DNA from: Leptospirales bacterium
GTDB taxonomy: Bacteria > Spirochaetota > Leptospiria > Leptospirales > Leptonemataceae
Assembly: GCA_019694655.1 (NCBI GenBank)
Contig: JAIBBN010000020.1
Coordinates: 1-47,999, forward strand
Reading direction: 5' to 3'
Length of the DNA: 47,999 nucleotides
The notes beneath the pieces are model-generated. The model had not been told where the DNA came from. It worked only from the letters and a program-made list of their open reading frames with translations, and ran no database searches. Positions 1-15,338 of the stretch are shown piece by piece (the first letter of the stretch is position 1; every line of letters starts with the position of its first letter). The translations under genes and the position numbers were made by a program.

Positions 1-129
1 CTCGGCCCTCGGCCTCTCGCTTCGCTCGCGCGGACAGGCGCAATTCTGGAATATGGCAGGGCGCCTGCCGCGACGGCCTTCTGGCACATTGCCGCTTTGC
101 GGCAACGTCGCGTAGCTAGAACGTTATAC
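1..129 (+). other. attC-like cassette site, 3' part (cut by window edge)
   Basis: This is the downstream part of an attC-type recombination site. The closing box GTTATAC is at 123-129 and is preceded by the inner motif GTAGCTAGAAC. The body is GC-rich and self-complementary. It is almost base-for-base the same as the complete site at 8763-8937, which is what identifies it. The opening box lies outside the window, so the cassette it belongs to cannot be named. Confidence 0.75.
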
Positions 130-153
130 GCCATTGGCTGCGGTGATTTTGTT

Positions 154-1218
154 ATGTTAACTTTTGTTTTAGGTGCCGGATTTTCTCATTCATTCAATCC
201 AGACCTACCTCTTACGAAGGATCTCCTAAGGATCGCAGAAACTCGAGGTCTTTTTCAATCCGACTCCTACAAAGAGCACCTTCAGAGCTATATTCACGAA
301 TACTTCAATGGAACATTTGATGACGTCAACTTCGAGGTAGTAGCAACGTTCCTCGTCAATACGCCCCTACCAATTGAAGGTGAAGACGTCGGCCAATTTC
401 GAACTTTATTCGGGTCTCTCATCTCCATTCTGAAGTCCGTGCTTGCCGACCGAAATGTTTTTTCAAAAGCTACCGGCCAGAATCGCGATCGACTACGCAA
501 ATGTATCAATCATCTAATTTTCAACAACGCTTACGTGATCACATTCAATTATGATCTTATAGTCGATAACGAGCTTCACAGCACAGATCATTGGTTTCCA
601 GCAACTGGCTACGGTCCGACATTGGATTTTCCTCCCCACTTTATCCCTAATTCATCGCTTCAGCCATTGCTAACCAAGTTTTACAAGAAGAGCAATGTTC
701 AGGTTCTAAAGCTACACGGATCATTTAACTGGGGCACTCCGCACCTCCCTTATCCCGGGATCCCTCAGAATGTATTCCTCGATTTTCCGTACGATCCAGG
801 AGGAAACAAGCGACCATTGGATCCAATTGAAGTAACTCGCTATCTCGACGCGAAATCTTCGAGTCGATTCCACTATTCCACTTATATTGTTCCGCCCATC
901 TACGGAAAACGATTCGAAGATCCTCTTATCACTGATATCTGGTACCGAGCTACACAAAGACTGACTGCCTCTAAGTCCACTTACATAATTGGTTATTCTT
1001 TTCCTGAGTCCGATATCACCGCAGAACGTATGTTTCGCGAGAGCCAGCGGAAACCTCTTTCCTTCGGCGCTGCGCGTCAGGTCACAATCGTGGACCCGTC
1101 GATTCCTGATTCACGCAAGGAGAGAATTCGTAGCATCTTTTTCAATTCCAATGTGCAATTCGAGGAGATGGATGCGTTTGCGTTTCTTGAAAAACTCACC
1201 GCAGCCAACGGCGTATAA
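154..1218 (+). CDS. SIR2-like domain protein (probable defence cassette gene)
   Basis: This 354-residue protein has the motif order of bacterial SIR2-like proteins. It has a nucleotide-binding GAGFS at residues 7-11, TFNYD near 129-133, KLHGSFNW near 186-193 and an IIGYSFPESD segment near 278 that precedes the C-terminal half. SIR2-like domains in bacterial defence genes usually consume NAD+ when phage is sensed; that role is inferred here from family and context. The frame is open from position 97, but 97-129 is attC sequence, so ATG 154 (start MLTFVLGAGFS) is the sensible start. The TAA stop lies inside the next attC opening box, GTATAAC, which is typical for cassette genes. No second effector or sensor gene shares the cassette. 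SIR2 fold confidence is high; biochemical activity is unknown. Confidence 0.8.
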   Translation: MLTFVLGAGFSHSFNPDLPLTKDLLRIAETRGLFQSDSYKEHLQSYIHEYFNGTFDDVNFEVVATFLVNTPLPIEGEDVGQFRTLFGSLISILKSVLADRNVFSKATGQNRDRLRKCINHLIFNNAYVITFNYDLIVDNELHSTDHWFPATGYGPTLDFPPHFIPNSSLQPLLTKFYKKSNVQVLKLHGSFNWGTPHLPYPGIPQNVFLDFPYDPGGNKRPLDPIEVTRYLDAKSSSRFHYSTYIVPPIYGKRFEDPLITDIWYRATQRLTASKSTYIIGYSFPESDITAERMFRESQRKPLSFGAARQVTIVDPSIPDSRKERIRSIFFNSNVQFEEMDAFAFLEKLTAANGV

Positions 1219-1421
1219 CTTCCGTTCCCCGCTCCGCGCCTTCGCTACACTGCGTTTCGCTCCGGTGCTCGGTCCTGACACTCTCAGCAAACGGCTCACA
1301 CGTTCGCCTTTTTGCTTCGCGCGGGTGCGCGCGGATTTAGGAATACTAGAAGCGCGCGCACCGCGCCGTGTTGCGGACAAATTGCGCTTCGCGCAACTTC
1401 GGGGAACTAAATACGTTACGC
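1213..1421 (+). other. attC site (type A, about 209 bp)
   Basis: The opening box GTATAAC is at 1213-1219 and the complementary closing box GTTACGC is at 1415-1421. Between them is a long, imperfectly self-complementary GC-rich body. The body is closely similar to the sites ending at 4966, 12253, 13189 and 15697, defining one attC family in this array. It contains the stop codon of the preceding SIR2-like gene. Confidence 0.85.
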
Positions 1422-1565
1422 GAAATGCCGCCCTTGGTGCTTTCCCCAGCATTTGTCTTGTCAAAATTTTGAGATTGCAAAAAGTGTGCTTCTCCGACAA
1501 TGATGTAAAGAATTATGTCCCCTAAATGGAGACTTGTCGCGTGTATAGCATATAAGTAGGTGTCT

Positions 1566-1751
1566 ATGCCTTTGATCCCTGATTTCGATCCCGTCGCAGT
1601 TCAGAAAGCCATTGAGAAAGTCTTTGCCGAAGAGAAAAACGAGGCTCCTCGATATAATCCGTTTCTTCTCCTTGAACCCGATGCCGAATTTGATGCAATG
1701 ATTGCAGAGAATGCAAAGGAGCAATCCATAAAGCAACTTCTGGGAAAGTGA
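1566..1751 (+). CDS. small hypothetical protein, first gene of a two-gene cassette
   Basis: This encodes about 61 acidic residues starting MPLIPDFDPVAVQ. The frame is open from GTG 1560, but ATG 1566 has the better-placed purine stretch (taagtagg) upstream. I do not recognise a domain. The stop TGA at 1749-1751 lies 1 bp before the TTG start of the next gene, so the two are probably translationally coupled. A small acidic protein followed by a larger one resembles an antitoxin-toxin or regulator-effector pair in layout only; no motif supports that. The 140 bp upstream, after the closing attC box, is AT-rich and includes the palindrome CAAAATTTTG at about 1463-1472; it probably holds the promoter. 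Confidence 0.55.
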   Translation: MPLIPDFDPVAVQKAIEKVFAEEKNEAPRYNPFLLLEPDAEFDAMIAENAKEQSIKQLLGK

Positions 1752-1752
1752 T

Positions 1753-2454
1753 TTGGACACTGAACTGACCCGGAAGGTTCGGGATTACTTTCTCGCGCGC
1801 GACAAAATCGACAAGATCCTCGAGGACAATAGCGCTGAAATCCAGCGAAACCTCAAGATCGTTGTGGGATACCGTGTTGAGATCTTCCATGCGCTGATGA
1901 ATCAATGGTCTCGTCACGTCGAAGCATTGGGGTACCCTTTTTCGGAGCTTGTTTCAGTCGGCCCGCTTGATGCTGCGCTCGCCGGAGCGTACACCGAATA
2001 CATTCGGTACGTATTTTACTACCGGTTCGCCAACAATTTGCCGCGTAATATCATTTATAGGAAGATTTTTTCCTTTGAATTTTACTATTTCCACAAACGC
2101 CACGTCCTTCAACGCAGGGATGACGCTCCGCAAGCACCTTTGGACGATCTCTCTCCGGATGCCAGATTATTCCATCTCTCGCCATTGGCCCATTTTTTTG
2201 CCTACCGGCTCCTCAAGGAATTTCGGCTCGTGAAAATCGACCTGCCGGAAGCAGTCACACTCTTTCGGCGAGTGCAGGGCATTGTCACGCAAAAGGTCCT
2301 CGATTTTGTAGCTCGTGATGGAAGTGCAGAAACGCAACACGATTCATTCCGGATTTTTCTGAACCAACCGGGCAATGAAGATATCAGAAGCGTCTTCGAT
2401 GTTATCGAAGACGAAAAATATCCACGGCGTCAACCAAACCTCTTTGAAATATAG
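1753..2454 (+). CDS. hypothetical protein, second gene of a two-gene cassette
   Basis: This encodes 233 residues from a TTG start (LDTELTRKVRDYF). No in-frame ATG lies near the beginning, and coupling to the upstream stop makes TTG plausible. The protein is mixed-charge and mostly helical, with a tyrosine/phenylalanine-rich middle (residues about 75-115, including FEFYYFHKRH). I see no signal peptide, membrane segment or catalytic motif and do not recognise the family. It ends 12 bp before the next attC opening box, the normal position for a cassette gene. With its 61-residue partner it may form a two-component accessory module, but that is inferred from layout alone. Confidence 0.6.
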   Translation: MDTELTRKVRDYFLARDKIDKILEDNSAEIQRNLKIVVGYRVEIFHALMNQWSRHVEALGYPFSELVSVGPLDAALAGAYTEYIRYVFYYRFANNLPRNIIYRKIFSFEFYYFHKRHVLQRRDDAPQAPLDDLSPDARLFHLSPLAHFFAYRLLKEFRLVKIDLPEAVTLFRRVQGIVTQKVLDFVARDGSAETQHDSFRIFLNQPGNEDIRSVFDVIEDEKYPRRQPNLFEI

Positions 2455-2466
2455 GGCGGCACGTTC

Positions 2467-2666
2467 GCATAACTTCCGGGTAACCGCTGCGCCCTCGACA
2501 GGCTCGGGCTCGGCCGCTCGGCCCTCTCCGCCCAAACGGCTTCGCCTTTTTGGGCTACGTCCGGACACGCGCCGCCTTACGGCAGAATAAATGGCGCGCG
2601 CCGGAGCGGGCCTTCGGGCAAATCGTTCGCTTCGCTCACGACTTCGGTTACCCTCTTTCGTTATGC
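2467..2666 (+). other. attC site (type B, 200 bp)
   Basis: The opening box GCATAAC (2467-2473) is exactly complementary to the closing box GTTATGC (2660-2666). The inner boxes are also complementary: GGGTAACC near 2479-2486 pairs with GGTTACCC near 2647-2654. This R''-L''...L'-R' arrangement is the diagnostic secondary structure of attC sites and is the clearest example in the window. Confidence 0.9.
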
Positions 2667-2721
2667 AAAAGGCCGGCATGCGATCTTATCAAGATCTTTG
2701 ATTAATGAAGGGAGGCAAACA

Positions 2722-3639
2722 ATGCGTTCGAGATTCTTACTGGTAGTCCTCATGAGTATTTTTTCCATATGTCGCGCATCGCCTGTGCGAATTCCAAATG
2801 AGGAGGCCGTTGACGTGGCTGCGCGACAACTCAAGCTCACTCTTTTGGAAAACTATCGCTCCTCGGAGAAGAAAACCATAGGTATCGCCTCATTTGCCCG
2901 GACAGACTTAATAACGCCGAATGCCGAGTATCGTTCGGTCGTACCAAAGCTTGGCGTTTTATTGGGGAACGCTCTGCAAAACGAGATGTTCGCTCCAGAA
3001 ACTTTCGACCTGGTCGAACGCCTGCGAATCGAGGAGTTGCTCAAGGAATCCAACTTGTACCAAACAGGCCTCATGGACCCTAACACGCTTCGTTCTGTGC
3101 AACTCACCGGGGTCGATTACATACTTCTGGGTACCCTACAGAAGCGCGAGTCAAGTATCCGAGTCGATGCGCGGCTAGTGTCGCTTGATGGCGGCAAAGT
3201 GGTTTCGGTGGCCACCGCCATAGTCCCGTTAACCGGCAATGTAGTGCAGCTATACAACGACTACCCGGAGCGATCGTCCACATACACGCACGCGGTAACG
3301 GCGAATCAGGGTTGGCAGCAGGTCCAGGCGCCCATTCAGGGCGGTGTCACAGTTGAAGTCACGACAGAGGGGAACTGGTCCATGACCAATGATGGTTATC
3401 AATTCGACGGAACGGGAGTTTCAGCGAATCCATCGCGTCATGGTGATTATCGCATCGACCGCAGTTTCAACCATGGCGCCTTGCTCTGTCGCGTAACGGG
3501 CCAGCAGACATTCTTTACAGTCGGCAATTCAGACATTCACGGGACGGGCCTCATTGAGTGCACCATTAACGATAAAGACCAGCAAAACAATAGAGGTGCC
3601 TTAACCGTTACTTTTAAAATAGCGCCCCTGGATCGTTAA
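2722..3639 (+). CDS. secreted CsgG/FlgO-like protein with lectin-like C-terminal domain
   Basis: This 305-residue protein starts with a signal peptide (MRSRFLLVVLMSIFSICRAS; cleavage likely after ASP/RAS). ATG 2722 follows a good ribosome site (gggagg, 2710-2715), so it is preferred to the in-frame ATG further upstream. Residues about 45-180 match the CsgG/FlgO N-terminal fold of periplasmic and outer-membrane secretion proteins, seen in LGVLLGNALQNEMF, FDLVERLRIEELLKE and VDYILLGTLQ. Residues about 210-300 (GNWSMTNDGYQFDGTGVSAN, GALLCRVTG, FFTVGN, TINDKDQQNNRGALTV) resemble PA-IL-type galactose-binding domains. That pattern suggests an envelope protein that binds sugar. The lectin assignment is from pattern only. 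It is the single gene of its cassette. Confidence 0.7.
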   Translation: MRSRFLLVVLMSIFSICRASPVRIPNEEAVDVAARQLKLTLLENYRSSEKKTIGIASFARTDLITPNAEYRSVVPKLGVLLGNALQNEMFAPETFDLVERLRIEELLKESNLYQTGLMDPNTLRSVQLTGVDYILLGTLQKRESSIRVDARLVSLDGGKVVSVATAIVPLTGNVVQLYNDYPERSSTYTHAVTANQGWQQVQAPIQGGVTVEVTTEGNWSMTNDGYQFDGTGVSANPSRHGDYRIDRSFNHGALLCRVTGQQTFFTVGNSDIHGTGLIECTINDKDQQNNRGALTVTFKIAPLDR

Positions 3640-3650
3640 GCCGGTCCTTC

Positions 3651-3840
3651 GTAGAACTTCACATACACGCTGCGGCGTGCCTTTCGGCACGTCCTCGGCC
3701 ACTCGTTGCTCTCGCGGAAACATTTCATTTGTTCCGCTCGCGCCGGTGCGCGCAATTTTGGTAAATTGCAAAGGCGCGCACGGCGCCGCCACTCGGGCAC
3801 ATTCGCCGCCGGCGAACGTCGTGTATGCATATCATTGCAT
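3651..3840 (+). other. attC site (type C) with altered closing box
   Basis: The opening box GTAGAAC is at 3651-3657. The body matches the site at 11367-11570 (shared TTCACATACACGCTGCG-like start and CGGAAACATTTCAT segment). The expected closing box is ATTGCAT (3834-3840), where the invariant first G of GTT is replaced by A. That base lies at the integrase cleavage triplet, so the site may be inactive. Confidence 0.7.
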
Positions 3841-3864
3841 GAAATGCTGCGGGGTTTTTAGTTC

Positions 3865-4089
3865 ATGAACAAAGGAGGTAAGGCAGTTCAAAAGGTTTTA
3901 TGTACATTGATAGAATTATATCAAAAAATTGCCCCTATAAGGATTAGGCAATCTTGCAGATTTGAGCCAACTTGCTCAAACTATATGATTATGGCAATTC
4001 ACAAATATGGTTCTATAAAAGGTATTTCATTAGGAATAAATCGACTATTCAGATGTCGATATCCTAATGGCGGTCAAGATTGCCCATAA
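3865..4089 (+). CDS. yidD: YidD-like membrane protein insertion factor
   Basis: This 74-residue protein carries the YidD family signature: an amphipathic N-terminal stretch (TLIELYQKIAPIRIRQ), the CRFEPTCSNYMIMAIHKYG core at residues about 31-49, and the RLFRCRYPNGGQDCP tail. YidD aids YidC-dependent insertion of inner-membrane proteins and is normally encoded beside rnpA and yidC. Here it is an extra copy in a cassette, well away from that locus. Its DNA is strikingly AT-rich compared with the neighbouring sites, and AAA, ATA and TTA codons are common, so it was probably acquired from a low-GC donor. A ribosome site (aaaggagg) sits just inside the start region. It shares a cassette with the DUF4177-like gene 17 bp downstream. 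Confidence 0.85.
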   Translation: MNKGGKAVQKVLCTLIELYQKIAPIRIRQSCRFEPTCSNYMIMAIHKYGSIKGISLGINRLFRCRYPNGGQDCP

Positions 4090-4106
4090 GACAAAAGGAG
4101 AAAACA

Positions 4107-4358
4107 ATGGCACAGTTTAACTACAAATGCGTTCCCGTTCCGACTGTACTCGATACAGGAAAGGCTGGAAAGGACCCGCATGGTGCAGCTGTAATTGCTT
4201 ATCAAAATATAATCAATGAATCTGCAAAAGATGGGTGGGAACTTGTTCAAGCGGATCAGATTTCTTCCGTTCAAAATCCTGGTTGCTTTGCAGGATTATT
4301 CGGAATGAAAGCTGAAGCAATGACGTTCAAGTTGCTCATATTTAAAAAAGCAATTTAA
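4107..4358 (+). CDS. DUF4177-like small protein
   Basis: This 83-residue protein starts MAQFNYKCVPVPT. ATG 4107 follows a strong ribosome site (aaaggag, 4094-4100). The pattern of an N-terminal strand (FNYKCVPV), a helix (AVIAYQNIINESAKDGWELV) and a C-terminal strand (MTFKLLIFKK) is that of DUF4177-type proteins, whose role is unknown. It follows yidD by 17 bp with the same AT-rich base composition, so the two probably arrived together. No signal peptide or membrane segment is visible. The gene ends about 20 bp before the next attC opening box. Confidence 0.65.
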   Translation: MAQFNYKCVPVPTVLDTGKAGKDPHGAAVIAYQNIINESAKDGWELVQADQISSVQNPGCFAGLFGMKAEAMTFKLLIFKKAI

Positions 4359-4385
4359 CGACACCGCGGTAGCACTTCATACAAC

Positions 4386-4759
4386 CAGACTGACGAATAA
4401 GTACAGAATTTGAAGCTGCCTGTCCTCGCCTGCCCCTTCGGACAGATCGAGGCGAACTTTTTGGATCGAAGCCAGCCGATTCGACGTTTTTCGCAGGGCG
4501 GTGCGCGAATGGCGGCCCGGGCGCACGGATTGCGCGATCACAAACGCCGGAGATCAGCAGCGTTGGCGATCTTTTCGATGTTGTGGACCATGCAATAGAG
4601 CAGCCATTGGGCGTTTACTTTTTGTTGACCACGCAGCGTGAAACGATTGAGCCCTTTCTGGAAGGTAATGTTCGCAAACACGGGCTCCACGATGCCCATG
4701 CGTTTTGAATAGAGCTGGCGACCGGGTCAGTTTCAGATTGGCGGGTACATCGACAGACT
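4386..4759 (-). mobile_element. IS1182-family remnant A, inside an attC opening box
   Basis: This 374-bp internally deleted element is flanked by the 4-bp direct repeat CAAC (4382-4385 and 4760-4763). Its ends are imperfect inverted repeats: AGACTGACGA..GTAC on the left, and AGTCTGTCGAT.GTAC read inward from the right. It keeps only the C-terminus of a transposase on the minus strand. About 230 bp of its left part recurs at 15346-15575 and, more diverged, at 16391-16690. All three copies start exactly after the AAC of an attC opening box. Confidence 0.75.
4538..4735 (-). pseudogene. IS1182-family transposase, C-terminal fragment
   Basis: Translation of the minus strand gives PGRQLYSKRMGIVEPVFANI, then NRFTLRGQQKVNAQWLLYC and MVHNIEKIANAADLRRL followed by a stop at 4538-4540. 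This is the conserved C-terminal region of DDE transposases of the IS1182 group (KR.GIVEPVFAN, FTLRG..KV, HN..K). In-frame stops lie immediately upstream, so the catalytic domain is gone and the fragment cannot transpose alone. Confidence 0.8.
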
Positions 4760-5032
4760 CAACTCTCGATCCCCGCTCCGCGCCTTCGCTGCACTTCGTT
4801 CGCCTCCGGTGCTCGGTACTGACACTCTCAACAAACGGCTCACTTTGTTCGCCTGCTTGTTTCGCGCGGGCGCGTGCGGATTTTTGATTATTAGAGCCGC
4901 GCGCACCGCGCCGCGCTACGGACAGATTGCGTTGCGCGCAACTTCGGCTACTTAAATACGTGACATGCCATTCCGCGTGAAGAGCAGTGACCTGCCCCCC
5001 GCGTGGATACCAGAGTGTCTGTTAGATTTTGC

Positions 5033-5683
5033 CTATGAGGCCATATGTTGTTGTAAAGCAAATTCCTCCGGGGTCATGTACTTCAATGAGCTGTGGGGGC
5101 GCTCCGTGTTGTACTGTTTACGCCAACTTTCGACGGTTCGGCGAACTTCTCGGATGTTCCTGAACCAGTTGCTGTTGAGCAGTTCGTCGCGCACCCTTCC
5201 GTTGAAGCTCTCGATGAAAGCGTTCTGAGTCGGCTTCCCCTTCTCGATGAAGTGGAGATCAATACGGTGATCGGTCGCCCAGCTTTGCATCGCTTTGCAG
5301 ATGAATTCCGGTCCATTATCGACAACAATCTGACCCGGCCGACCGCGGAACTCGATTAATCTTTCAAGCTCCCTGATGACCCGGATCCCCGGCAGAGAGA
5401 AGTCCGGCTCCATTGCGAGGGCTTCGCGGGTGCAGTCGTCGATAACATTCAGCAGCCGGAACACGGTTGCGTCATACAGGGTATCGCTCATGAAATCCAT
5501 CGACCATCGTTCATTGGGCTGTTGTGCCTGCCGCAGCCGGCGTCTGAGGTCCTCGTCGTTTTTCTCTTTCGGTTTGCGCCGGTATGCGGACCGGCCTGCC
5601 TGCAAGACACGGCAGGCATGGCGCTCGGTGAGCCCGTGCTTCTTGAGCTGGTCCACGGCCCATCGTCTCCGCGTCCGGCTCAC
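5033..5683 (-). CDS. IS3-family transposase OrfB (catalytic part)
   Basis: This 216-residue rve/DDE integrase core has the catalytic residues in WSMDFMSD (first Asp), VDNGPEF (second Asp) and FIESFNG (Glu). The tail RPHSSLKYMTPEEFA is typical of IS3 OrfB. The frame opens at GTG 5681-5683, overlapping the OrfA stop. The functional transposase is more likely the OrfAB fusion made by -1 frameshifting at the A6G run just upstream. No internal stop is seen, so the element may still be active. Confidence 0.9.
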   Translation of the reverse strand: MSRTRRRWAVDQLKKHGLTERHACRVLQAGRSAYRRKPKEKNDEDLRRRLRQAQQPNERWSMDFMSDTLYDATVFRLLNVIDDCTREALAMEPDFSLPGIRVIRELERLIEFRGRPGQIVVDNGPEFICKAMQSWATDHRIDLHFIEKGKPTQNAFIESFNGRVRDELLNSNWFRNIREVRRTVESWRKQYNTERPHSSLKYMTPEEFALQQHMAS

Positions 5684-5943
5684 AGCTTTTTTAGAACGGC
5701 CCTCGTCGCCTGAATCTCGAGAGCCTGGTTCGCGACGAGACGCTTGAGTTCCGAGTTCTCGTGCTCTAGCTCCTTCATGTGACGCAGGTCGCTCAGCTCC
5801 ATGCCTCCGTACTTCGCCCTCCAGCGATAGACGGTTTGCTCCGAGATCCCGTGCTTGCGACAGACATCGGTCATCGTCACGCCCGATTCCATTTCCTTCA
5901 AAACCCCGTGAATCTGGGGCTCCGTGAAGCGTTTCCTTTTCAT
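5680..5943 (-). CDS. IS3-family OrfA (HTH DNA-binding subunit)
   Basis: This 87-residue protein starts MKRKRFTEPQIHGVLKEMES. It has a Tnp_1-type helix-turn-helix (MTDVCRKHGISEQTVYRWRAKYGG, residues about 24-47) followed by a leucine-zipper-like coiled coil (LEHENSELKRLVANQALEIQ). The frame extends 12 codons upstream of ATG 5943, but the internal start matches the family. OrfA binds the terminal inverted repeats and limits transposition. It ends at VLKKL-stop directly after the frameshift site. Confidence 0.9.
   Translation of the reverse strand: MKRKRFTEPQIHGVLKEMESGVTMTDVCRKHGISEQTVYRWRAKYGGMELSDLRHMKELEHENSELKRLVANQALEIQATRAVLKKL
5686..5692 (-). promoter_or_regulatory. programmed -1 frameshift site (AAAAAAG)
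   Basis: Read on the minus strand this is A-AAA-AAG, the classic slippery heptamer of IS3 elements. It lies 3 bp before the OrfA stop codon and in the right phase to shift ribosomes into OrfB, which would give the OrfAB transposase. Confidence 0.75.
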
Positions 5944-6085
5944 CTTAAACCTCTTGTTCCCTTTCACGCTCCGGTACAAGAGGATTTTCTCAGTCCTGTT
6001 GGACCCCTTTCAGGGGGGCAGGTCAGCTACGCTCGCAATTTCCGTCAGCGTAACGTCTGCACCATGTGCCGGGTTGGGAGACGGA

Positions 6086-6694
6086 CTATTGAAGAGAACG
6101 TCCGTCAGTACCCTTCGGAATGCGCGGCACGTCTACGCTTTCGCTATCTTGCTCAACAACGACAATTTCGAGAATTCCGTCTTCAATATTCAGCGCCTTC
6201 CACAAATCGACATATGGTTGGAGCTCATTGAAATTTCCGACCCGATCAGTGAGGTACTGATAAAGGTTCCTCGATGGCACAACCAAGATTCCCACGTTCA
6301 GGGCTTTCTTAAGAATACCTAAGGCCATTTTGTTTAGAGCACGATGGCTCGAGGAAATGTTTCCCGTTTCCCATTCCAAGGCTATGATGATGTTGCCGAC
6401 TCTATTCACCGCATCCAGCTTCCCCGGCCGTACGTTCGTAGCAAGGTCTAGGGGTTGTTCCCTGTCCCAGCCTTGCGCTATTAGTCTTTGAATAAAGCCA
6501 TCTTTGATAGGAGTGACACCGTTACCTTCGCCCCGCCGCTTCCCACTTTGCGGATGAATCGTAAATTTTCCTGATCCCGGCGGCCAATCAATCCTCCGAA
6601 TCTCGGACAGCAGATTCTCCCTCAGCCGCGCCCATTCCGCGGAAGTGGAAAAGGGACCGACGTTGAGAAGCGTCTCAATATGAACGATTTTCAA
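6086..6694 (-). CDS. BamHI-like type II restriction endonuclease
   Basis: This 202-residue protein aligns by eye with BamHI over most of its length. Shared blocks are GNGVTPIKD near residues 58-66, EWETGNISSSHRALNKMALG near 107-126, YLTDRVGNFNELQPYV near 146-161 and VPRIPKGTDG near 189-198. The catalytic acidic residues are conserved: Asp in GKLDAV, and the two Glu of EWE correspond to BamHI Asp94, Glu111 and Glu113. BamHI cuts GGATCC; the same or a related specificity is inferred, not shown. The gene lies 7 bp downstream of the methylase gene on the same strand, so the protective enzyme is made first. Both genes run against the array direction. Several GGATCC sites exist in the window (for example 758-763 and 819-824), so an active enzyme would need active methylation. 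Confidence 0.88.
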   Translation of the reverse strand: MKIVHIETLLNVGPFSTSAEWARLRENLLSEIRRIDWPPGSGKFTIHPQSGKRRGEGNGVTPIKDGFIQRLIAQGWDREQPLDLATNVRPGKLDAVNRVGNIIIALEWETGNISSSHRALNKMALGILKKALNVGILVVPSRNLYQYLTDRVGNFNELQPYVDLWKALNIEDGILEIVVVEQDSESVDVPRIPKGTDGRSLQ

Positions 6695-6701
6695 GCCGCT
6701 C

Positions 6702-7577
6702 TCATCCTTCTACGAAGTCTCCGTTCTTGTGCGGTTTCACGTCGTCCGATTTCAGACGTTCCGCAATATCATCCGCATAGTCGATCTCCATGCCGATCCA
6801 GTGCCGATGTTTGTACTCGCAAGATACATAAGTCGTTCCGCTGCCACCGAAAGGATCAAGGACCAAGTCTCCGGGCATAGTGGACAGCTCAATAGCGCGA
6901 TCTGTGATCTTAGTGGACAGTGCGTTTGCAGTTCTATTCTTTGATTTGAACTTCGCGTGTCGCACAGGTGGAACATCGGTCCAAACATCCTTAAGGTTTA
7001 CGCCCTTCGGATTCATTGCCTTTCGGTGTCCTCCGTAATCCTTGATCTCGCCACCACAATGACGGCACAACTCAATCGGTGTGCGGATCTTCCGGAAGAC
7101 TCGTGGTTTTCCCTTTGTGAAATACAGAAGGCTGTAGTGGCTTGGGTACAGCCGCCCCTGGATTGGCAACAAGACACTAATTTCCAACGCTATCCAATGC
7201 CTAAAGTCCATTCCCAATTCATAGAGAAAGGCGCCGAACAAAATGTTCCACTTCGGAAGATTGTAAAGAAAAAAGGCGCCGCCCGGTTTCAACGTGCGTA
7301 CGCACTCTCGAATCCACTCTTTGCACCAATCCAAATATTGAGGTTCAGGTCTATTATCATTGGTTCTACTACGATAAACTTTTCCAATGTTGAATGGCGG
7401 ATCCGCAAAAACGGTGTCGACCGACCCTTCCTTTATCAGCGGCAGCATACTCATGCAATCACCCTCAAACAAAGCGCCCAAATTCGTTGAAAAATAGGGT
7501 TTCACAGCCTTTTTGAAAAATGGCCGCGAATCAAAGTGCCCAGGCTTCACCAATCTAAGTTGCTGCGAGCGTGCCAT
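6702..7577 (-). CDS. DNA methyltransferase of the BamHI-like R-M pair (beta class)
   Basis: This 291-residue amino-methyltransferase has the catalytic motif TVFADPPFNIG near residues 55-65 before the AdoMet-binding motif LVLDPFGGSGTTYVSCEY near 245-262. That order (motif IV before motif I) defines the beta class of N6-adenine/N4-cytosine methylases. The target-recognition region in between includes CRHCGGEIKDYGGH, a possible zinc site. ATG 7577 gives MARSQQLRLVKPGHF. It is followed 7 bp later by the endonuclease and presumably protects the same site. M.BamHI is an N4-cytosine methylase; whether this DPPF enzyme methylates C or A cannot be told from sequence alone. No controller (C) protein gene is present. 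Confidence 0.88.
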   Translation of the reverse strand: MARSQQLRLVKPGHFDSRPFFKKAVKPYFSTNLGALFEGDCMSMLPLIKEGSVDTVFADPPFNIGKVYRSRTNDNRPEPQYLDWCKEWIRECVRTLKPGGAFFLYNLPKWNILFGAFLYELGMDFRHWIALEISVLLPIQGRLYPSHYSLLYFTKGKPRVFRKIRTPIELCRHCGGEIKDYGGHRKAMNPKGVNLKDVWTDVPPVRHAKFKSKNRTANALSTKITDRAIELSTMPGDLVLDPFGGSGTTYVSCEYKHRHWIGMEIDYADDIAERLKSDDVKPHKNGDFVEG

Positions 7578-7664
7578 ATTGGGACAATTTGCGTTCGGCT
7601 CGAGAGAACGTCAAGCAAAGCACACATATGTATAGTATCCGCTATGCCCTCGAGCGCCGCGCAT

Positions 7665-7854
7665 GGCTGACGCTACGCCGCTCCGCGCCCCGGAGCCTGG
7701 CAATTGCAGTGTTCGGCCTCTCGTGCTCTTGCGGAAACTTTCCGCTCGCACGAAGCCAGCGCAGACCGGATTACGAGAATGCATCGGTTCGCGCCATACT
7801 TCTGGCATATTTGCTCGCCTTACTCGTGAACCTCGGGTAGCTAAAATGTTAGGC
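7665..7854 (+). other. attC site (about 190 bp)
   Basis: The closing box GTTAGGC (7848-7854) is a perfect consensus match. The best opening box is GGCTGAC (7665-7671), with inner boxes GCTACGCC and GGGTAGCTA that resemble the site at 8763-8937. The body is GC-rich and palindromic. The 87 bp between the methylase start (7577) and this site must hold the promoter of the reverse-strand R-M operon; I could not pick a convincing one. Confidence 0.7.
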
Positions 7855-7882
7855 GCAAATAGCCCCGCTTGGAATCTGAATA

Positions 7883-8488
7883 ATGAAAAAACTTTGGATC
7901 ATCGGTGCAATCGTTGGCGGCACTTATCTCTCCACCGTATTGGTCTATGTAATCCACTTTTCAGCGCATGGAGTCTCGGCCGACCCAGCAGACTGGGGGA
8001 CATTCGGTGACTATCTCGGTGGTGTCGTTAATCCACTTCTATCCTTCGCCACCTTTGTTGGTGTGCTGCTTTCACTGTACTTTACCCATCAAGAACTGCA
8101 AGGGGGCCGAGATCAACCTCATATGGAAAGCGCAATTCAATTGTTGGGCTTTTACACAGGTCGTCTGGATACTGTTACCGGGAGCATCATATCTTTGGTT
8201 GGGTCAACCGATGGGACCATCTACGCCACCAACCTTCCTCACAGGTCGCAAGTGGGTGTCTTCACAATGAATACCGTTGGCTGGCATGCGCAAGTAGGGA
8301 CAAAATTGCAAATCGCCATCTATAAGCTTCTCGAACAACTCAACCAATTGTCACCCGGCCATCCGCACCTAGTCTTCTATGCAACCCACAATTGCAATAT
8401 AGTGAAGAGGTTCTATGAGCAGGGTTGGACGGATCCCAAAGTCTGGGCTCTTGTTGAACGTTTGGCCGACAGGGATCTTGCTCAATGA
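7883..8488 (+). CDS. putative AbiC-like phage abortive infection membrane protein
   Basis: This 201-residue protein has two N-terminal membrane helices: residues about 4-27 (LWIIGAIVGGTYLSTVLVYV) and about 52-73 (NPLLSFATFVGVLLSLYF). They are separated by WGTFGDYLGGVVNP, followed by HQEL at the start of a soluble domain. The pattern of a first helix, W..FGDy.GG..NPllsf, a second helix and then a cytosolic domain is that of the putAbiC/phage abortive infection family. The C-terminal 125 residues are mixed helical with no catalytic motif I recognise. It is the only gene in its cassette. The domain match is by pattern; a defence role is inferred from family name and from the neighbouring R-M and SIR2 cassettes. 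Confidence 0.6.
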   Translation: MKKLWIIGAIVGGTYLSTVLVYVIHFSAHGVSADPADWGTFGDYLGGVVNPLLSFATFVGVLLSLYFTHQELQGGRDQPHMESAIQLLGFYTGRLDTVTGSIISLVGSTDGTIYATNLPHRSQVGVFTMNTVGWHAQVGTKLQIAIYKLLEQLNQLSPGHPHLVFYATHNCNIVKRFYEQGWTDPKVWALVERLADRDLAQ

Positions 8489-8511
8489 GCGGGCAATTTC
8501 GTCTAAAATGA

Positions 8512-8762
8512 GTTAAACGAAAGGCCCGTCGTGCTAGCGCGATTTTCGCGCAATGCGGCCGACGAAAGCTATATTCTTCTTTTCTTATGCTGACGGGCGA
8601 AGGTCTCCTCTCTTCGGAAAACTTCTCTAGATATGAATGCATTTTCTCAAACAAGCGCCCGATCGATGGCGCCTTGTGATTCGTTCTTTGCGACGGCGCT
8701 TCGGACGGCCGCATTGTCTGTCTGCGGCGATAGCTCACGTGATCTGCGCGCGAGGGCCAATC
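8512..8762 (+). other. cassette-like interval with no convincing gene
   Basis: A GTTAAAC box (8512-8518) followed by GAAAGGCCC resembles the cassette junction at 10779-10793 and may be the end of a collapsed attC directly after the AbiC-like gene. The next 244 bp, up to the following attC, hold no credible gene: a frame from 8633 runs straight through the attC. A perfect hairpin (GCGCGA-TTT-TCGCGC, 8537-8551) lies near the start. It could be an RNA-coding, promoter or degenerate cassette. Confidence 0.4.
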
Positions 8763-8937
8763 GTTTAACTCCCGCTACGCGCTACGCTCCTCGGCTTCGC
8801 CTGCGGTGCTCGGCCCTCGGCCTCTCGCTGCGCTCGCGCGGACAGGCGCTATTCTGGAATATGGCAGGGCGCCTGCCGCGACGGCCTTCTGGCACATTGC
8901 CGCTTCGCGGCAACGTCGCGTAGCTAGAACGTTATGC
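8763..8937 (+). other. attC site (type D, 175 bp)
   Basis: The opening box GTTTAAC is at 8763-8769 and the closing box GTTATGC is at 8931-8937. The inner motifs CGCTACGC and GCGTAGCTA are complementary. The body from about 8808 is nearly identical to the partial site at 1-129, so these two share a recent origin although their cassettes differ. Confidence 0.85.
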
Positions 8938-8953
8938 GAAACGGTCCGCTGAT

Positions 8954-9757
8954 ATGAAGATACCGGCCAGAACAAATTTACTCGCTCTCCTTGCTTGTGG
9001 TCAAATCTACGGCCAGGATCCTCGTACAAGATCGATTTCGGCCGACGGCGTTCGCATCAGAACGGAACCGTCGCTGTCAGGAAATGTCATTGGTTCATAT
9101 AACAAGGGCGACACTGTTATTGAACTTGAAAGAACTCATGACTTGCAAACTATTGATGGCAGGACAGCTGTCTGGGTGAAGGTTATTCGTGCCTGTTCAA
9201 ATCCAGGGTGGGTTTTCGGTGCCTTTGTTGCGCCGGAAAATCTTGGAGTCGATTTCGCTTTTTCGGCCGCCGGAGCAGTTGAAAGGTCGAATCCGACTCT
9301 GGCCATTGCAGAATATGGGGAGATCATCCAAAATTTTCCACACGCACAGCGCTCAGAAGGTTGCCATGGCCTGTACTCCGCCTCACGAGAAGCCCAGTAT
9401 CGAATGGATCTGATAACTTGCCGTCTCACAGCAAACCACGCAAATCTTACGCTGGCACAATTTGCTGAGATCATCAAAGCCGGAGTCCGTACGCAAAATG
9501 CACCGCAGTTGCAAACTCTCCTGAGCTGTGATTTTTCAATTCGAACCGGACCTTTACAATTGCAATTTCTACCATCGCAAGGCATCGCTGAGGTATTAAA
9601 GCTTTTTTCTGAAAATCCTGCCGATATGGAAAACATCTCTGTAACACCCAGTGAAATTCGTATTGAGTACGTTCGCCAGAGAGGCCACTTTTTCAGAATT
9701 CTTGTTACTGAAGAAAATGGAAAGCTTGTCTGGAGCAGTTTTTGTGCGGACTGCTGA
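8954..9757 (+). CDS. SH3b-domain lipoprotein
   Basis: This 267-residue protein starts MKIPARTNLLALLACG. The LLAC at residues 12-15 is a lipobox, so it is probably a lipoprotein. Residues about 28-95 form a bacterial SH3 domain (ADGVRIRTEPSLSGNVIGSY, GDTVIELER, WVKVIR, GWVFGAFV), a fold that often binds peptidoglycan or metals. The remaining 170 residues include a helical part (AIAEYGEIIQNFPHAQ) and a mixed region ending FCADC, with no recognised family. It is a single-gene cassette in array orientation. A similar SH3b plan occurs in the gene at 13894. Confidence 0.7.
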   Translation: MKIPARTNLLALLACGQIYGQDPRTRSISADGVRIRTEPSLSGNVIGSYNKGDTVIELERTHDLQTIDGRTAVWVKVIRACSNPGWVFGAFVAPENLGVDFAFSAAGAVERSNPTLAIAEYGEIIQNFPHAQRSEGCHGLYSASREAQYRMDLITCRLTANHANLTLAQFAEIIKAGVRTQNAPQLQTLLSCDFSIRTGPLQLQFLPSQGIAEVLKLFSENPADMENISVTPSEIRIEYVRQRGHFFRILVTEENGKLVWSSFCADC

Positions 9758-9772
9758 GCAGCTCGCCGCATC

Positions 9773-9981
9773 GCATAGCTTCGGGTAAACGCTCCGCTCC
9801 TTGCGCCCAATACGGCGCTCCGGTGTTTGGTCCTGGCCCTCTCCGCAAAACCGTCTCACTCCGTTCGCCTCGTTTTGCTCCGTGCGGACGCGCGCGATTC
9901 TGAAAAAAGAATCGCGCCCGTCGCACCGGGCTGCGGAGAAATTGGCCTTCGGCCAACTTCGTTTACCCTAATTCGTTATGC
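9773..9981 (+). other. attC site (type B, 209 bp)
   Basis: The closing box is GTTATGC (9975-9981) and the opening box GCATAGC (9773-9779) has one mismatch to its complement. The inner boxes GGGTAAAC (about 9784-9791) and GTTTACCC (about 9961-9968) are perfectly complementary over 8 bp. Confidence 0.85.
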
Positions 9982-10005
9982 GAAATTCCGCGCGAAGGGG
10001 AACCG

Positions 10006-10233
10006 CTATCTTGCTGAAACCGCAGGCCGCCAGTTCATATCGAGTTTCTTTCGCTTCGCGGCACAATCGGCCAAATACAGGTTGATCAGATTTTGATACG
10101 GGATTCCCGTCTCTTCTGCCATCCTCTTGAAATAACCCACCGTATCCACATCGAGCCGGATCGTCACAGGTCGGCGAAGTTTTTTTGCATAAGGATTCTT
10201 CTTGGATTTGCTGAAGTCGTATTCTTTCCTCAT
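10006..10233 (-). CDS. brnA: BrnA-type antitoxin
   Basis: This 75-residue protein (MRKEYDFSKSKKNPYAKKLR...) is the antitoxin of a type II BrnT/BrnA module. After a basic N-terminus comes the BrnA DNA-binding region (RPVTIRLDVDTVGYFKRMAEETGIPYQNLINLYLADCA, residues about 21-58), a ribbon-helix-helix. It would neutralise BrnT and repress the operon. Its ATG overlaps the BrnT stop (ATGA), giving toxin-then-antitoxin order as in other brnTA operons. It runs against the array direction. It appears intact whereas the toxin is not. Confidence 0.85.
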   Translation of the reverse strand: MRKEYDFSKSKKNPYAKKLRRPVTIRLDVDTVGYFKRMAEETGIPYQNLINLYLADCAAKRKKLDMNWRPAVSAR

Positions 10234-10516
10234 AAAAGCTCCTCGTATTGCCGGCTCTCCGGCCTCGTTGCCTTCCGGGCGGAAATGATCCGGATTACTT
10301 CGTCACTTTCACGGTAACAATGAACGACGACCAGCAGCCGTACATCGTGTGAAAGACCGAGCAAAACGAACCTATCCTCCCCGTCGGAATGGTCAGGATC
10401 GGGCATGAAGCGCGCATTCTCGTCATGAAAAACGCTCTGGCCCTCTTGAACCAGACTCCGTGCTTTCGGAAGTTCGCGCGGTTCTTCGCCTCGTCCCATT
10501 CGAACCGTAACTCCAT
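10230..10516 (-). pseudogene. brnT: BrnT-type toxin, frameshifted
   Basis: The start MELRFEWDEAKNRANFRKHG and the remainder (VFHDENARFMPDPDHSDGE, RLLVVVHCYR..., RIISARKATRPESRQYEELL) together make a complete BrnT ribonuclease toxin. They lie in different frames. The break is around 10440-10455, in the run aagagggccagag (minus strand), and one inserted base would restore the family pattern KEAQSVFHDE. Either the toxin is inactivated by a one-base deletion or the sequence has an error there. The start ATG 10516 abuts the promoter. The residues of the BrnT active region (histidine and RKATR arginine) are still encoded. Confidence 0.8.
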
Positions 10517-10531
10517 ATGTATACTGTCAAT

Positions 10532-10560
10532 ATGATAGCAATACGCATGCGGTCAAGCAA
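10532..10560 (-). promoter_or_regulatory. brnTA promoter with extended -10
   Basis: On the minus strand, -35 TTGCTT (10555-10560) and -10 TATCAT (10532-10537) are separated by 17 bp, and a TG precedes the -10 by one base. The toxin ATG begins 16 bp after the -10, so the leader is very short. The GTATAC palindrome at about 10518-10523 may be a BrnA operator. Confidence 0.5.
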
Positions 10561-10580
10561 ACGATTTCGAGCGGAACTGC

Positions 10581-10785
10581 GTATGGCTTCCGGCCAACAG
10601 CTCCGCTCCTCGGCTTCGCCTGCGGTGCTCGGCCGCTTGGCCCTCTCCGCCCAAACGGCTCATTTCATTCGTCTTTTTGCGCTCGTCTGGACACGCACCG
10701 CCCTGGCGTGCTGAAAATATGGCGCGTGCCGGAGCGGTCCTTCGGGCACATTGCTCGCACCGTCGTTTAGCCTGTTCCGTCAAAC
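10581..10785 (+). other. attC site (type B-like, 205 bp)
   Basis: The closing box is GTCAAAC (10779-10785), a GTC variant of GTT. The best opening box is GTATGGC (10581-10587). The inner boxes GGCCAAC and GTTTAGCC are partly complementary. The body resembles the sites at 2467 and 9773. Confidence 0.65.
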
Positions 10786-10809
10786 GAAAGGCCCGGTTCA
10801 GGGGTTACA

Positions 10810-11349
10810 ATGAGTCCAAAACCCAAGAAAGTTTCCCAATCGAAGCTTTTGCCGCTGGCGAAGCCCTATGCGCCGCCTAGCCCGCTCACCGCGCTGGAGA
10901 AAAAAGCCATCATCATTGCCGTGGAATCCGCGTTCATGAAACTTCGCAATCTTTATGAGCGGATAACTCCGGTGTTCGATCAATATGGGTTCAAAGCCCC
11001 CTCCGCTGGTGTGATTGCGCGCGATTTGTCGGAGAAGATCGAAACCTCTATCATTCAGCACTGTAAAACCTTCCACCGTGGCCTTGGCTTTGCGGATCTC
11101 GCTCGCGGGAAAGATCGTTGGGAAGTTAAAATATGCAAGAATGGCGGTCTCGCCATCAATCAATCTGCTGTTATAAAAGGGGAAAACTACATCGTCGTTA
11201 ACTATCACCGTGAGACCGAAATAAAGAAAATTTTCATTCTCTGGGCGGCGCAAGATGAGTTCTTTTCAGAACGCAAGCGAAATGCGAATATCCGCCACAT
11301 GCGTGGAGACGCGGCAAAAGCCCACATCGAAACGATTTTCCCGATCTAA
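10810..11349 (+). CDS. hypothetical protein, possible PD-(D/E)XK nuclease fold
   Basis: This 179-residue protein starts MSPKPKKVSQSKLLP with a basic, proline-rich tail. The middle (GLGFADLARGKDRWEVKICKN) has an Asp followed about 9 residues later by E-V-K, then a strand (ENYIVVNYHRE) and another (KKIFILWAAQDEFF). That spacing fits PD-(D/E)XK nucleases such as restriction enzymes, but so short a motif is weak evidence. There is no methylase in the cassette. A purine stretch (caggggttac) precedes ATG 10810. It is the sole gene between two attC sites. Confidence 0.5.
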   Translation: MSPKPKKVSQSKLLPLAKPYAPPSPLTALEKKAIIIAVESAFMKLRNLYERITPVFDQYGFKAPSAGVIARDLSEKIETSIIQHCKTFHRGLGFADLARGKDRWEVKICKNGGLAINQSAVIKGENYIVVNYHRETEIKKIFILWAAQDEFFSERKRNANIRHMRGDAAKAHIETIFPI

Positions 11350-11366
11350 CTCGAACCGGGCGCATC

Positions 11367-11570
11367 GTACAACTTCACATTCACGCTGCGACGTGCCTTG
11401 CGGTACGTCCTCGGCCACGCGGGACTCTCGCGGAAACATTTCATTGTTTCTGCTCGCGCCGGTGCGCGCAATTTTGGCAAATTGCTAAGGCGCGCACGGC
11501 TGTAATCCGGCCCCGCTACTCGGGCACATGCTCGCTTTGCTCGCACGTCGGTTAGCTCACTACGTTAGCA
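11367..11570 (+). other. attC site (type C, 204 bp)
   Basis: The opening box GTACAAC is at 11367-11373 and the closing box GTTAGCA is at 11564-11570. The body shares long stretches with the site at 3651-3840 (TTCACATTCACGCTGCG, CGGAAACATTTCAT, GCGCGCAATTTTGG), so the two form one family. Unlike its relative it keeps the GTT triplet. Confidence 0.85.
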
Positions 11571-11664
11571 GAAATGTCCTGCCGAGAGAAAAATCATCCG
11601 GCAAAGTCCATACCGGTGATCATGAGAGCTGCCACGCCGCTTCACACGCCATACGCAACACTTT

Positions 11665-11955
11665 TTGATGCTACAGCAGGAGGGCCTAACGTGCTTGCCG
11701 AAACGCAGAGGTCAGGTTTTCCTAGCGCTGGTGCCAGTATCCCCGAATTCAACGCTGGCCGAGATCGCCAATTTATCCATAGACGAGCAATTGGATGCGC
11801 TCTCCACTATCTGGGACACAATTGTTGCAAAAGAACCAGTAGATGTGCAAGATGATGTTCGGGACTTACTGGAGCGTCGGCTGGCGGAAGATGCTGAAAA
11901 ACCTGGCATTCCCTGGCAAGATTTGAAGGCCCAGCTCCTCGCCCGGCTACGGTGA
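11665..11955 (+). CDS. orphan addiction-module component (Unstab_antitox-like)
   Basis: The 96-residue frame ends with the sequence pattern of the short putative addiction-module antitoxins (Unstab_antitox): LAEIANLSIDEQLDALSTIWDTI followed by RRLAEDAEKPGIPWQDLKAQLLARL. These are normally about 70-80 residues, so the true start may be downstream of ATG 11665/11668, for example a GTG near 11730. In most genomes a ParE/RelE toxin gene follows; here the next sequence is an attC, so the antitoxin is alone. It could be a leftover of a lost pair or could neutralise toxins encoded elsewhere. The family call is good; the start is uncertain. Confidence 0.65.
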   Translation: MMLQQEGLTCLPKRRGQVFLALVPVSPNSTLAEIANLSIDEQLDALSTIWDTIVAKEPVDVQDDVRDLLERRLAEDAEKPGIPWQDLKAQLLARLR

Positions 11956-12042
11956 CATATTCCCTTTCCGTCTTTGCGGTTATCCACGAAAGTCGACAGT
12001 TTCGAAGAATCCTGCGTTAGCGCTGAAACGCCGGGGCATTTC

Positions 12043-12253
12043 ACCGAACTCTCGCTACCAGCTCCGCCCTTCGCGGCACTTCGTTTCGCTACGGTGTTCG
12101 GTCCTGGCACTCTCAGCATACGGCTCGTTTCGTTCGCCTTCTTCCTTCGCGCGGTTGCGCGCGGATTTGGGAATATTGGAAGCGCGCGCACCGCGCCGTG
12201 CGGCGGACAAATTTGCGCTTCGCGCAAACTTCAGATACACGAACACGTCATAC
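12043..12253 (+). other. attC site (type A, 211 bp)
   Basis: The opening box ACCGAAC is at 12043-12049 and the closing box GTCATAC (GTC variant) is at 12247-12253. The body is nearly the same as the sites at 1213-1421 and 12984-13189. Another GTTAGCG at about 12015-12021 lies just before it and may be a relic of an earlier junction. Confidence 0.75.
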
Positions 12254-12281
12254 GCAATTGCGCCACTCGGAATAGAAATAC

Positions 12282-12310
12282 TTGACACCCTATCCAATAG
12301 GGTATACATT
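12282..12310 (+). promoter_or_regulatory. promoter and palindromic operator of the higBA-like pair
   Basis: TTGACA (12282-12287) is followed by a -10 candidate TATACA (12303-12308) or TACATT (12305-12310; 17-bp spacing). The spacer is a perfect palindrome, ACCCTAT-CCA-ATAGGGT (12287-12303), which would place a bound antitoxin over the promoter. The GTG start is at 12316, so the transcript is almost leaderless. Confidence 0.7.
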
Positions 12311-12315
12311 GTTCT

Positions 12316-12651
12316 GTGACCAGGGAATTTGTCATCCTTGCGGAATTTGACAAGCAATGGGCTCGATTAGGCTTAACAGACGATGATTTACTGGAGCTAC
12401 AATACTCTCTCTGTCATCATCCAGATGCGGGTAAGGTGGTCTCCGGAACGGGTGGTTTGAGAAAGCTGCGATGGGCGCTTCCTGGTCGCGGAAAACGAGG
12501 TGGAGCTAGAGTTGCATACGTGGATATCGTGCTGAAAGAAACAATCTACCTGGTCACGGTTTATCCTAAGAATGAAAAGGATGATCTCTCTGAGACAGAG
12601 AAAAAACAGATTCGTAGCTTCATCAAAGCCCTTGCAGGAGAGAAATCATGA
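12316..12651 (+). CDS. RelE/HigB-family toxin
   Basis: This 111-residue protein runs from GTG 12316 (VTREFVILAEFDKQWARLGL). Residues about 35-75 carry the HigB-2/RelE signature (NPDAG-like HHPDAGKVVSGTGGLRKLRWALPGRGKRGGARVAYVD). It ends with VTVYPKNEKDDLSETEKKQIRSFI, typical of this RelE subfamily. These toxins cleave mRNA at the ribosome. The stop overlaps the antitoxin ATG by 4 bp (12648-12651), giving the toxin-first order of higBA. The promoter and operator are directly upstream. No frameshift is seen, so the module looks functional. Confidence 0.85.
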   Translation: MTREFVILAEFDKQWARLGLTDDDLLELQYSLCHHPDAGKVVSGTGGLRKLRWALPGRGKRGGARVAYVDIVLKETIYLVTVYPKNEKDDLSETEKKQIRSFIKALAGEKS

Positions 12652-12968
12652 AAAAGCAATCAGTTGCTGAAAGCATCCTCAAAGGTCTCGGTGAGGCAGT
12701 TCAGTATGAAGCAGGAAAAAAGTCTGCGGGCAGAACTGTAACCATCAAAATCGCGCCACTTCCGAAAATAAGTCGTCAAAAGATTAAGAAGATTCGTGAA
12801 AATCTTCATCTTTCTCAACGGCGCTTCGCTGATGTCCTTGGTGTTTCGATCAAAACGGTGGAAGCATGGGAATCCGGTCGGAACAAACCAGCTGGCTCCT
12901 CAATTCGACTTTTACAAATTATTGAGAGGCAACCAAAGGTTGTCGGAGAATTCGCTGCAGCAAAATAA
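12648..12968 (+). CDS. HigA-like XRE-family antitoxin
   Basis: This 106-residue protein has a C-terminal helix-turn-helix of the Cro/CI type (SRQKIKKIRENLHLSQRRFADVLGVSIKTVEAWESGRNKPAGSSIRLLQII, residues about 43-93). The N-terminal 40 residues are likely the toxin-binding part. It should bind the palindrome at 12287-12303 and repress the pair. Translation is coupled to the toxin by an ATGA overlap. The gene ends about 15 bp before the next attC. Confidence 0.88.
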   Translation: MKKQSVAESILKGLGEAVQYEAGKKSAGRTVTIKIAPLPKISRQKIKKIRENLHLSQRRFADVLGVSIKTVEAWESGRNKPAGSSIRLLQIIERQPKVVGEFAAAK

Positions 12969-12983
12969 GAGCGGCGCAACTGC

Positions 12984-13189
12984 GTATCACTCTCGTTACA
13001 AGCTCCGCCCTTCGTTGCACTTCGTTTCGCTACGGTGTTCGGTCCTGGCGCTCTCAGCAAACGGCTCGTTTCGTTCGTCTTTTTGTCTCGCGCGGTTGCG
13101 CGCAGTTTCGGAACATAAGAAGCGTGCGCACCGCGCCGTGCGGCGGACAAATGCACCTTGCGCGCTTCTGGTAACTTCACACGTTAGGC
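12984..13189 (+). other. attC site (type A, 206 bp)
   Basis: The closing box GTTAGGC (13183-13189) is a consensus match. The opening box is GTATCAC (12984-12990), or possibly GCGCAAC just upstream (12974-12980). The inner boxes CGTTAC and GGTAAC pair. The body is nearly the same as in the site at 12043-12253. Confidence 0.8.
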
Positions 13190-13240
13190 GCCATTGGCCA
13201 GCGTCTGAAGCCCTATATATGCTTAGGGGCCAGCCAGAAC

Positions 13241-13897
13241 ATGGGTATCCTCCTTCAGATGACGCACGATGGCGTTCGACCTGATCGTCTCATCTCCCTG
13301 ATCTCTGAAACCCTCTTCCTGCTCGAAGACGAACTTCAGCGCAACTCGCCCACGCCAGCTGACGATACCCTCATCTGGACATTGGCCGCCGAAGCGGCCC
13401 TTCTCCTCGAGCAGATTACGAACGCCTTCCCAGCATTACAACTTCAGGGGAATATTGCATTCGTTCGCGCTGCTATCGCCAGGCGCCAGCCGGCTGAGAA
13501 CATCGCGTTCTTCCTGGCTCGGTCTTTCGATGCCGTCAGGGCGCCCGTAGCCGATCTCTCCGAAGCCGATGTTTCCCGTTTGAGCGCTCCAGTAGAAGCC
13601 TTTGTAAGCGCCATCGCGCCCCTGCTATCGGGCCGCTGGTTATCGAAATGCTGGCCAACAGCGGATAACTTCCGGATACCTGCGGCGTCGGCACTGTCGC
13701 GCCTCCCTGGGTCTGCGCCCTCTACGGCCAAACGGCTCACGTCGTTTTTCTCATTGGCCTCCGTCCGGATGCGCGCCGTTTGGCGGCAGAATAGATGGCG
13801 CGCACCGGATCGGGCTGGACCGCATTTCGCCACCGACGGAACGCCGGCTATCCTCTCCGTTATACGCCCTGAACAACTTGGGGGAAGGATCTTGTGA
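13241..13897 (+). CDS. hypothetical helical protein whose frame runs through an attC
   Basis: The 218-residue frame opens with a helical region (LISLISETLFLLEDELQRNS, TLIWTLAAEAALLLEQIT, AENIAFFLARSFDAVRA). It reaches position 13663 without a stop and then reads through the whole attC to a TGA at 13895-13897. The native part is probably residues 1-141, and the last 77 are attC-encoded. That TGA overlaps the GTG start of the next cassette gene. No domain is recognised. The start could instead be ATG 13259 (MTHDGVRPDRL). The attC may have been joined to a gene that lost its own stop. Confidence 0.5.
   Translation: MGILLQMTHDGVRPDRLISLISETLFLLEDELQRNSPTPADDTLIWTLAAEAALLLEQITNAFPALQLQGNIAFVRAAIARRQPAENIAFFLARSFDAVRAPVADLSEADVSRLSAPVEAFVSAIAPLLSGRWLSKCWPTADNFRIPAASALSRLPGSAPSTAKRLTSFFSLASVRMRAVWRQNRWRAPDRAGPHFATDGTPAILSVIRPEQLGGRIL
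13663..13865 (+). other. attC site (type B, 203 bp)
   Basis: The opening box GGATAAC is at 13663-13669 and the closing box GTTATAC is at 13859-13865. The inner boxes GGATACC and GGCTATCC pair imperfectly. The site is read as coding by the upstream frame, so unlike the others it contains no in-frame stop for that gene. Confidence 0.8.
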
Positions 13898-14607: not shown

Positions 14608-14619
14608 GTTGTTCACGGC

Positions 14620-15265: not shown

Positions 15266-15338
15266 GCAATCCCGCAGTACTCCCCATGCGCCGCCTGTGC
15301 CGATATGAGCATGCCGTAACACCCCGGGGTGCAACTCC

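Follow-up and report, generated by a model that had tools for sequence, protein, structure and literature searches.

A complete type II restriction-modification (R-M) system of the BamHI family very probably resides in an integron-type cassette of a Leptospirales genome, where a methylase-first gene order would time the endonuclease without a C protein. The window (the whole stretch of DNA that was analysed, 47,999 nucleotides) contains two intact genes on the minus strand, a methylase (M; 6702..7577, 291 aa, ATG start) and, downstream of it, a BamHI-type restriction endonuclease (R; 6086..6694, 202 aa, TTG start) that keeps the catalytic and contact residues of BamHI, and the pair is flanked by attC-like sites. 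As for the specificity, methyl chemistry, activity and defence role of the pair, we infer that M would methylate GGATCC, most likely turning the inner C into N4-methylcytosine, like M.BamHI, and that R would cut unmodified GGATCC on incoming DNA.

A BamHI-type pair and its relatives

R matches the Pfam family BamHI (PF02923) over the entire profile (E 1.9e-52, positions 1-157 of 157), and a search of solved structures, with matches accepted up to an E of 1, returned exactly two, OkrAI (PDB 3odh; E 5.6e-55, residues 1-201) and BamHI itself (E 7.9e-23, 84.6 bits, residues 36-200 only). By these Pfam and structure matches, which lie far beyond chance, R is assigned to the BamHI family, with OkrAI the closer of its two solved relatives; no NCBIfam family matched R. 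M matches N6_N4_Mtase (PF01555; E 2.1e-36) and the PADLOC model PDLC03238 (E 1.2e-100), with no NCBIfam model over its cut-off. The matches of R to Pfam BamHI, OkrAI and BamHI and of M to N6_N4_Mtase uphold the proposal of an earlier note on this DNA that the two genes form a BamHI-like R-M pair.

The same note held BamHI to be an enzyme with few close relatives, a view refuted by the 211 stretches encoding an R relative that turned up when GTDB genome contigs were scanned with five aligned R sequences (the best 80 of the 211 were kept). The number of R relatives was nine in viral contigs and four in plasmids. Phage records contained no R relative at E 1e-5; with the M of a Geobacillus plasmid locus as query, six phage records matched at E 1e-20, each over less than 80% of the query. 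Among the host and 60 related genomes the Pfam BamHI family is present in two of the 61, the host and a genome of the same order (G025), whose contig C116 encodes the same M and R as a 10835-base Leptospiraceae contig among the best 80 (locus L013).

Cassette setting

The left boundary of the presumptive cassette is an attC-like site at 4759..4972 (+; profile match E 3.5e-57, part of the training set) and the right boundary one at 7678..7860 (+; E 5.8e-8, outside the training set), with the match to the latter beginning at model position 17, so that the site may start some bases earlier. The 12 attC-like repeats that went into the profile were drawn from contigs C20 (the window), C17 and C10, and the right boundary was not among them. 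At E <= 1e-3 the profile recovers 14 sites in the window, six of them from the training set, all within 1-15703 and all on the plus strand, and none in 17000-47999 or in loci L003-L095. attC sites run between cores of the GCATAAC/GTTATGC type, and many of the sites found here run from a GCATAAC-like to a GTTATGC-like core, the cores being degenerate in some, including the left boundary. The M-R pair sits between two such sites and is read against the array. On this profile evidence the pair is placed in a cassette-like unit of an array in one orientation, interrupted on its left side by an insertion element. The cassette-like setting claimed in the earlier note is thus borne out by the two boundary sites, as is its remark that the genes point against the array, the pair lying on the minus strand and every attC-like site on the plus strand.

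The insertion element is of the IS3 type (4988..6025, minus strand, 1038 bp), lies between R and the left attC-like site, and has a transposase in two frames with HTH_Tnp_1 and rve domains, a 13-nt perfect terminal inverted repeat and a single match in this assembly. No target-site duplication was seen at its ends, and the cassette may accordingly have undergone rearrangement on this left side, which counts against the main reading.

Related attC-like sites occur at the ends of contigs C10 and C17, so the assembly splits the array. Two sites of the window (1-130 and 8809-8938) are 97% identical, with a third copy (99%) at the start of C10, and such close similarity between sites may be why the assembly is broken at this place. 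For the integron integrase, the host assembly yields seven TIGR02249 matches, all of which score below the cut-off of 265. The match to the best protein falls into two segments, of 110 and 91 bits, with model positions 180-232 uncovered, and the model also gives sub-cut-off matches in every one of 14 control genomes. Since the assembly is broken at the array ends, an integrase may have been lost from it. Two tyrosine recombinase genes, below the integron-integrase cut-off, lie near the ends of host contigs C18 and C21 (L150 145-1221 and L149 6765-7226), one of them long (Phage_integrase, E 4.3e-42) and the other short with a stop inside the match.

A search that paired core sites and took stem energy into account failed to distinguish the array from control DNA (6 on the plus and 7 on the minus strand in 1-20000 versus 13 and 12 in 20001-47999) and was replaced by the repeat profile. 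Rfam has no match in the window, and the first 88 nt of one attC-like site fold no better than shuffled sequences (z -1.01).

Elsewhere in the array, a 373-aa cassette ORF at 97-1218 has weak PADLOC matches to SIR2-type defence proteins (E 1.2e-6) and no Pfam match, and is possibly a second defence cassette. Another cassette ORF, at 3865-4089, encodes a YidD domain (E 4e-20).

Gene order and expression

The canonical C-controlled layout, with C before R and M divergent, is absent from the window. M and R are in tandem, 7 bp apart from the M stop to the R start (6695..6701, minus strand, read from the sequence), and a BLAST search with two C proteins turned up no C-like ORF near R, in agreement with the earlier statement that the pair has no C protein. 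The layout was compared across 91 loci (the window, L004, L005 and L007-L094), from which L001 and L002 (the window itself), L003 (the same as L013), L006 (divergent, no M) and L095 (a weak match) had been omitted before counting. C was taken to be an ORF of <150 aa at <=2 kb with a BLAST match to either of the two C proteins at E 1e-3, calls among which some matches are weak and by which other C genes may be missed. R and M are convergent in 49 loci (20 with C) and M is divergent from R in 27 (24 with C); R precedes M in three (two with C), M precedes R in two (neither with C), and M was not found in ten (six with C). The tandem M-then-R order without C is therefore rare, occurring in the window and in the Leptospiraceae locus L013. 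Methylases of 387-423 aa are encoded in 25 of the 27 divergent loci, the other two being shorter, and methylases >400 aa also occur in two convergent loci. In a tree of R (86 rows, five loci with R ORFs <170 aa having been dropped) the window and L013 group together with support of 95/75. This is a little less than the tool asks of a firm branch, and the bootstrap had not settled, both of which count against the main reading; the grouping suggests that the M-then-R order arose once in Leptospirales.

The start codon of R sets the window apart from most of these loci: among the 85 others in which the codon of residue 1 is readable, it is ATG in 68, GTG in 14 and TTG in three. TTG is a weak start, and this is counted against the main reading. 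The last bases of M ahead of its stop codon are AAGGA, just upstream of the TTG of R.

The claim in the earlier note that genes opposing the array need their own promoter is a fair inference; the promoter itself was not recovered, a promoter scan giving no sigma-70-like match in 5900-7950, and this too counts against the main reading. By eye, TTGACG and CAAATT stand 17 bases apart just before M and agree with the consensus at 8 of 12 bases, a weak candidate. The missing promoter match and the insertion element without target duplication would both suit a silent or decaying cassette, in which intact genes that oppose the array, with no recognised promoter and an insertion element alongside, go unexpressed. 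This reading is nevertheless unlikely, as both ORFs are full length with conserved residues, which would argue against long neutral decay.

On the preferred reading, of a complete system timed by its M-first order, M and R would share one transcript and gene order would set their timing. M would be transcribed and translated first and R translated from the same message, with R initiation coupled through the TTG that lies seven bases past the M stop. The PvuII and BamHI systems were the first in which C proteins were recognised, and these proteins are believed to delay R relative to M (PMC12707154, in its available text); with M first here, AAGGA near the R start and a TTG start, the M-first order, coupled translation and weak start could together stand in for C control. 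More broadly, Leptospirales may carry a regulator-free form of the BamHI system, the place of C being taken by gene order and coupled translation, whose small size and built-in timing would let it move as one cassette and enter naive cells without killing them, a tentative extension that we would sooner doubt than assert. The two-locus M-then-R group, set against its C-containing relatives, offers a simple comparison for the timing of R-M expression.

The methylase and its DPPF motif

The translation of M has motif IV as FADPPFN near residue 57 and a motif I-like DPFGGSGTT near residue 241, the order of a beta-class amino-methyltransferase, and M is assigned to the M.BamHI type. It is 71% identical to the M of the Leptospiraceae locus and 51% and 48% identical to those of a Desulfocapsa and the Geobacillus plasmid locus, both with a C-like gene, and FADPPFN is common to all four. 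M differs from the methylases of the two plasmid loci in being a short form without their N-terminal extension of about 100 residues. The idea that the long methylases have a DNA-binding domain at the N terminus was dropped, as Pfam gave a single sub-threshold MerR match, in one of five.

The DPPF motif is usually tied to N6-adenine enzymes, which is counted against the main reading, and the earlier note took it as a departure from what a BamHI-type methylase should carry. That claim fails. In 81 of the 91 loci BLAST detected an M at most 3.5 kb from R, and DPPFN is present in 80 of these 81 adjoining methylases, including those of two C-containing loci, a count biased toward DPPF by the use of the window and Geobacillus methylases as queries; the exception is SPPYN in L050, a weak BLAST match. 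Among the ten loci without a BLAST-found M, a motif scan recovered an SPPYW methylase ORF in two (L026 and L036), an incomplete tally, as the scan missed the SPPY methylase of L015 and several of the ten loci end near R. DPPFN is thus the usual motif beside BamHI-type R, and the motif alone should not mark such methylases as adenine enzymes.

A quite unlikely alternative is that M methylates the A of GGATCC, as an N6-adenine enzyme, and that the R of this lineage is blocked by that mark. Apart from DPPF, the possibility draws on two NCBIfam adenine methyltransferase models that match M far below their cut-offs. An adenine mark within GGATCC is the Dam mark, which BamHI ignores, cutting Dam-modified DNA; a literature search found no paper on this Dam insensitivity. 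DPPF also occurs in the methylases of the two C-containing loci, and M.BamHI is an N4-cytosine enzyme (PMC2890505, PMC3646050, in the parts available), with GGAT-N4mC-C as its product (PMC3646050) and a use as a known N4mC control (PMC2890505, PMC8885841, likewise in part). The motif IV of the beta group is given as DPPY or SPPY in the accessible portion of PMC2890505. Judged from the Geobacillus relative, M.BamHI itself probably carries DPPF, and if it does, DPPF in this family would go with N4-cytosine methylation, the chemistry preferred here for M.

Methylases of other kinds accompany some BamHI-type endonucleases. In L026 (4664-5563) and L036 (4688-5566) the SPPYW methylase ORF stands beside a BamHI-type R and a C-like gene, a DPPF methylase not being found there, a possible methylase swap in Bacillota. 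In L015 a 457-aa ORF with an SPPY motif (1971-3344) lies between R and the DPPF methylase, and some BamHI-type loci may accordingly have two methylases; R-M gaps of a size similar to that of L015 occur in L016, L018, L020, L022, L024, L025, L027 and L033.

Predicted specificity

The alignment to BamHI that had been called for shows all ten checked positions kept. D94, E111 and E113, the catalytic acids of BamHI, correspond to D94, E107 and E109 in R, and its DNA-contact residues N116, S118, R122, D154, R155, D196 and G197 to N112, S114, R118, D150, R151, D197 and G198. With these positions conserved, GGATCC is the best prediction for the specificity of R; BamHI cuts this sequence as G^GATCC. 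In a sample of 20 stretches of 20 kb of the host (400 kb), 101.9 GGATCC sites would be expected and 84 were observed (z -2.21, rank 10 of 64 palindromes); with the window added, the expectation is 118.6 and the observed number 99 (rank 9). This mild scarcity is not enough for avoidance and counts against the main reading. A BamHI relative in which M and R moved together to a GGATCC-related site is very unlikely. In its favour are the modest score against BamHI itself (84.6 bits over residues 36-200) and the weak scarcity of GGATCC; against it, the checked contact positions are all kept and OkrAI is a BamHI isoschizomer (PMC4081073, PMC9416302, each in its available part).

Relation to known systems

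The BamHI system of Bacillus amyloliquefaciens H (M, C and R) shares with the window the R family, with its catalytic and contact residues, and the M family, the latter as judged via the Geobacillus and Desulfocapsa plasmid loci, M and C of BamHI being known here through relatives. It differs from the window in having C, which was not found here, and in a divergent rather than tandem arrangement of M and R. L013 resembles the window in its M-then-R tandem, with a 5-bp gap, a short M (294 aa) and no C found, its R being 60% identical to that of the window; it differs in the ATG start of R, in surroundings that are AT-rich by eye and in that no attC-like site of the window's type was found.

R-M genes on integron cassettes have already been reported (PMC9892861, citing other papers; PMC12444791), and the available portions of these two papers name no BamHI type and no Leptospirales host. 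Among spirochetes, only Treponema had then been found with integrons according to the accessible text of PMC3607928, and attC sites of Spirochaetes have been modelled (PMC8352920, available in part). A literature search by title and abstract, with subscription journals and REBASE outside its scope, found no BamHI-type system in a cassette. The window adds a cassette-borne, C-less member to the textbook BamHI family, with a gene order rare among the relatives examined.

The host may have further R-M capacity. On contig C17, below its cassette sites, a 520-aa ORF (L147 2706-4268) looks HsdM-like by eye and an HsdS-looking ORF lies at the edge, perhaps representing a type I R-M system.
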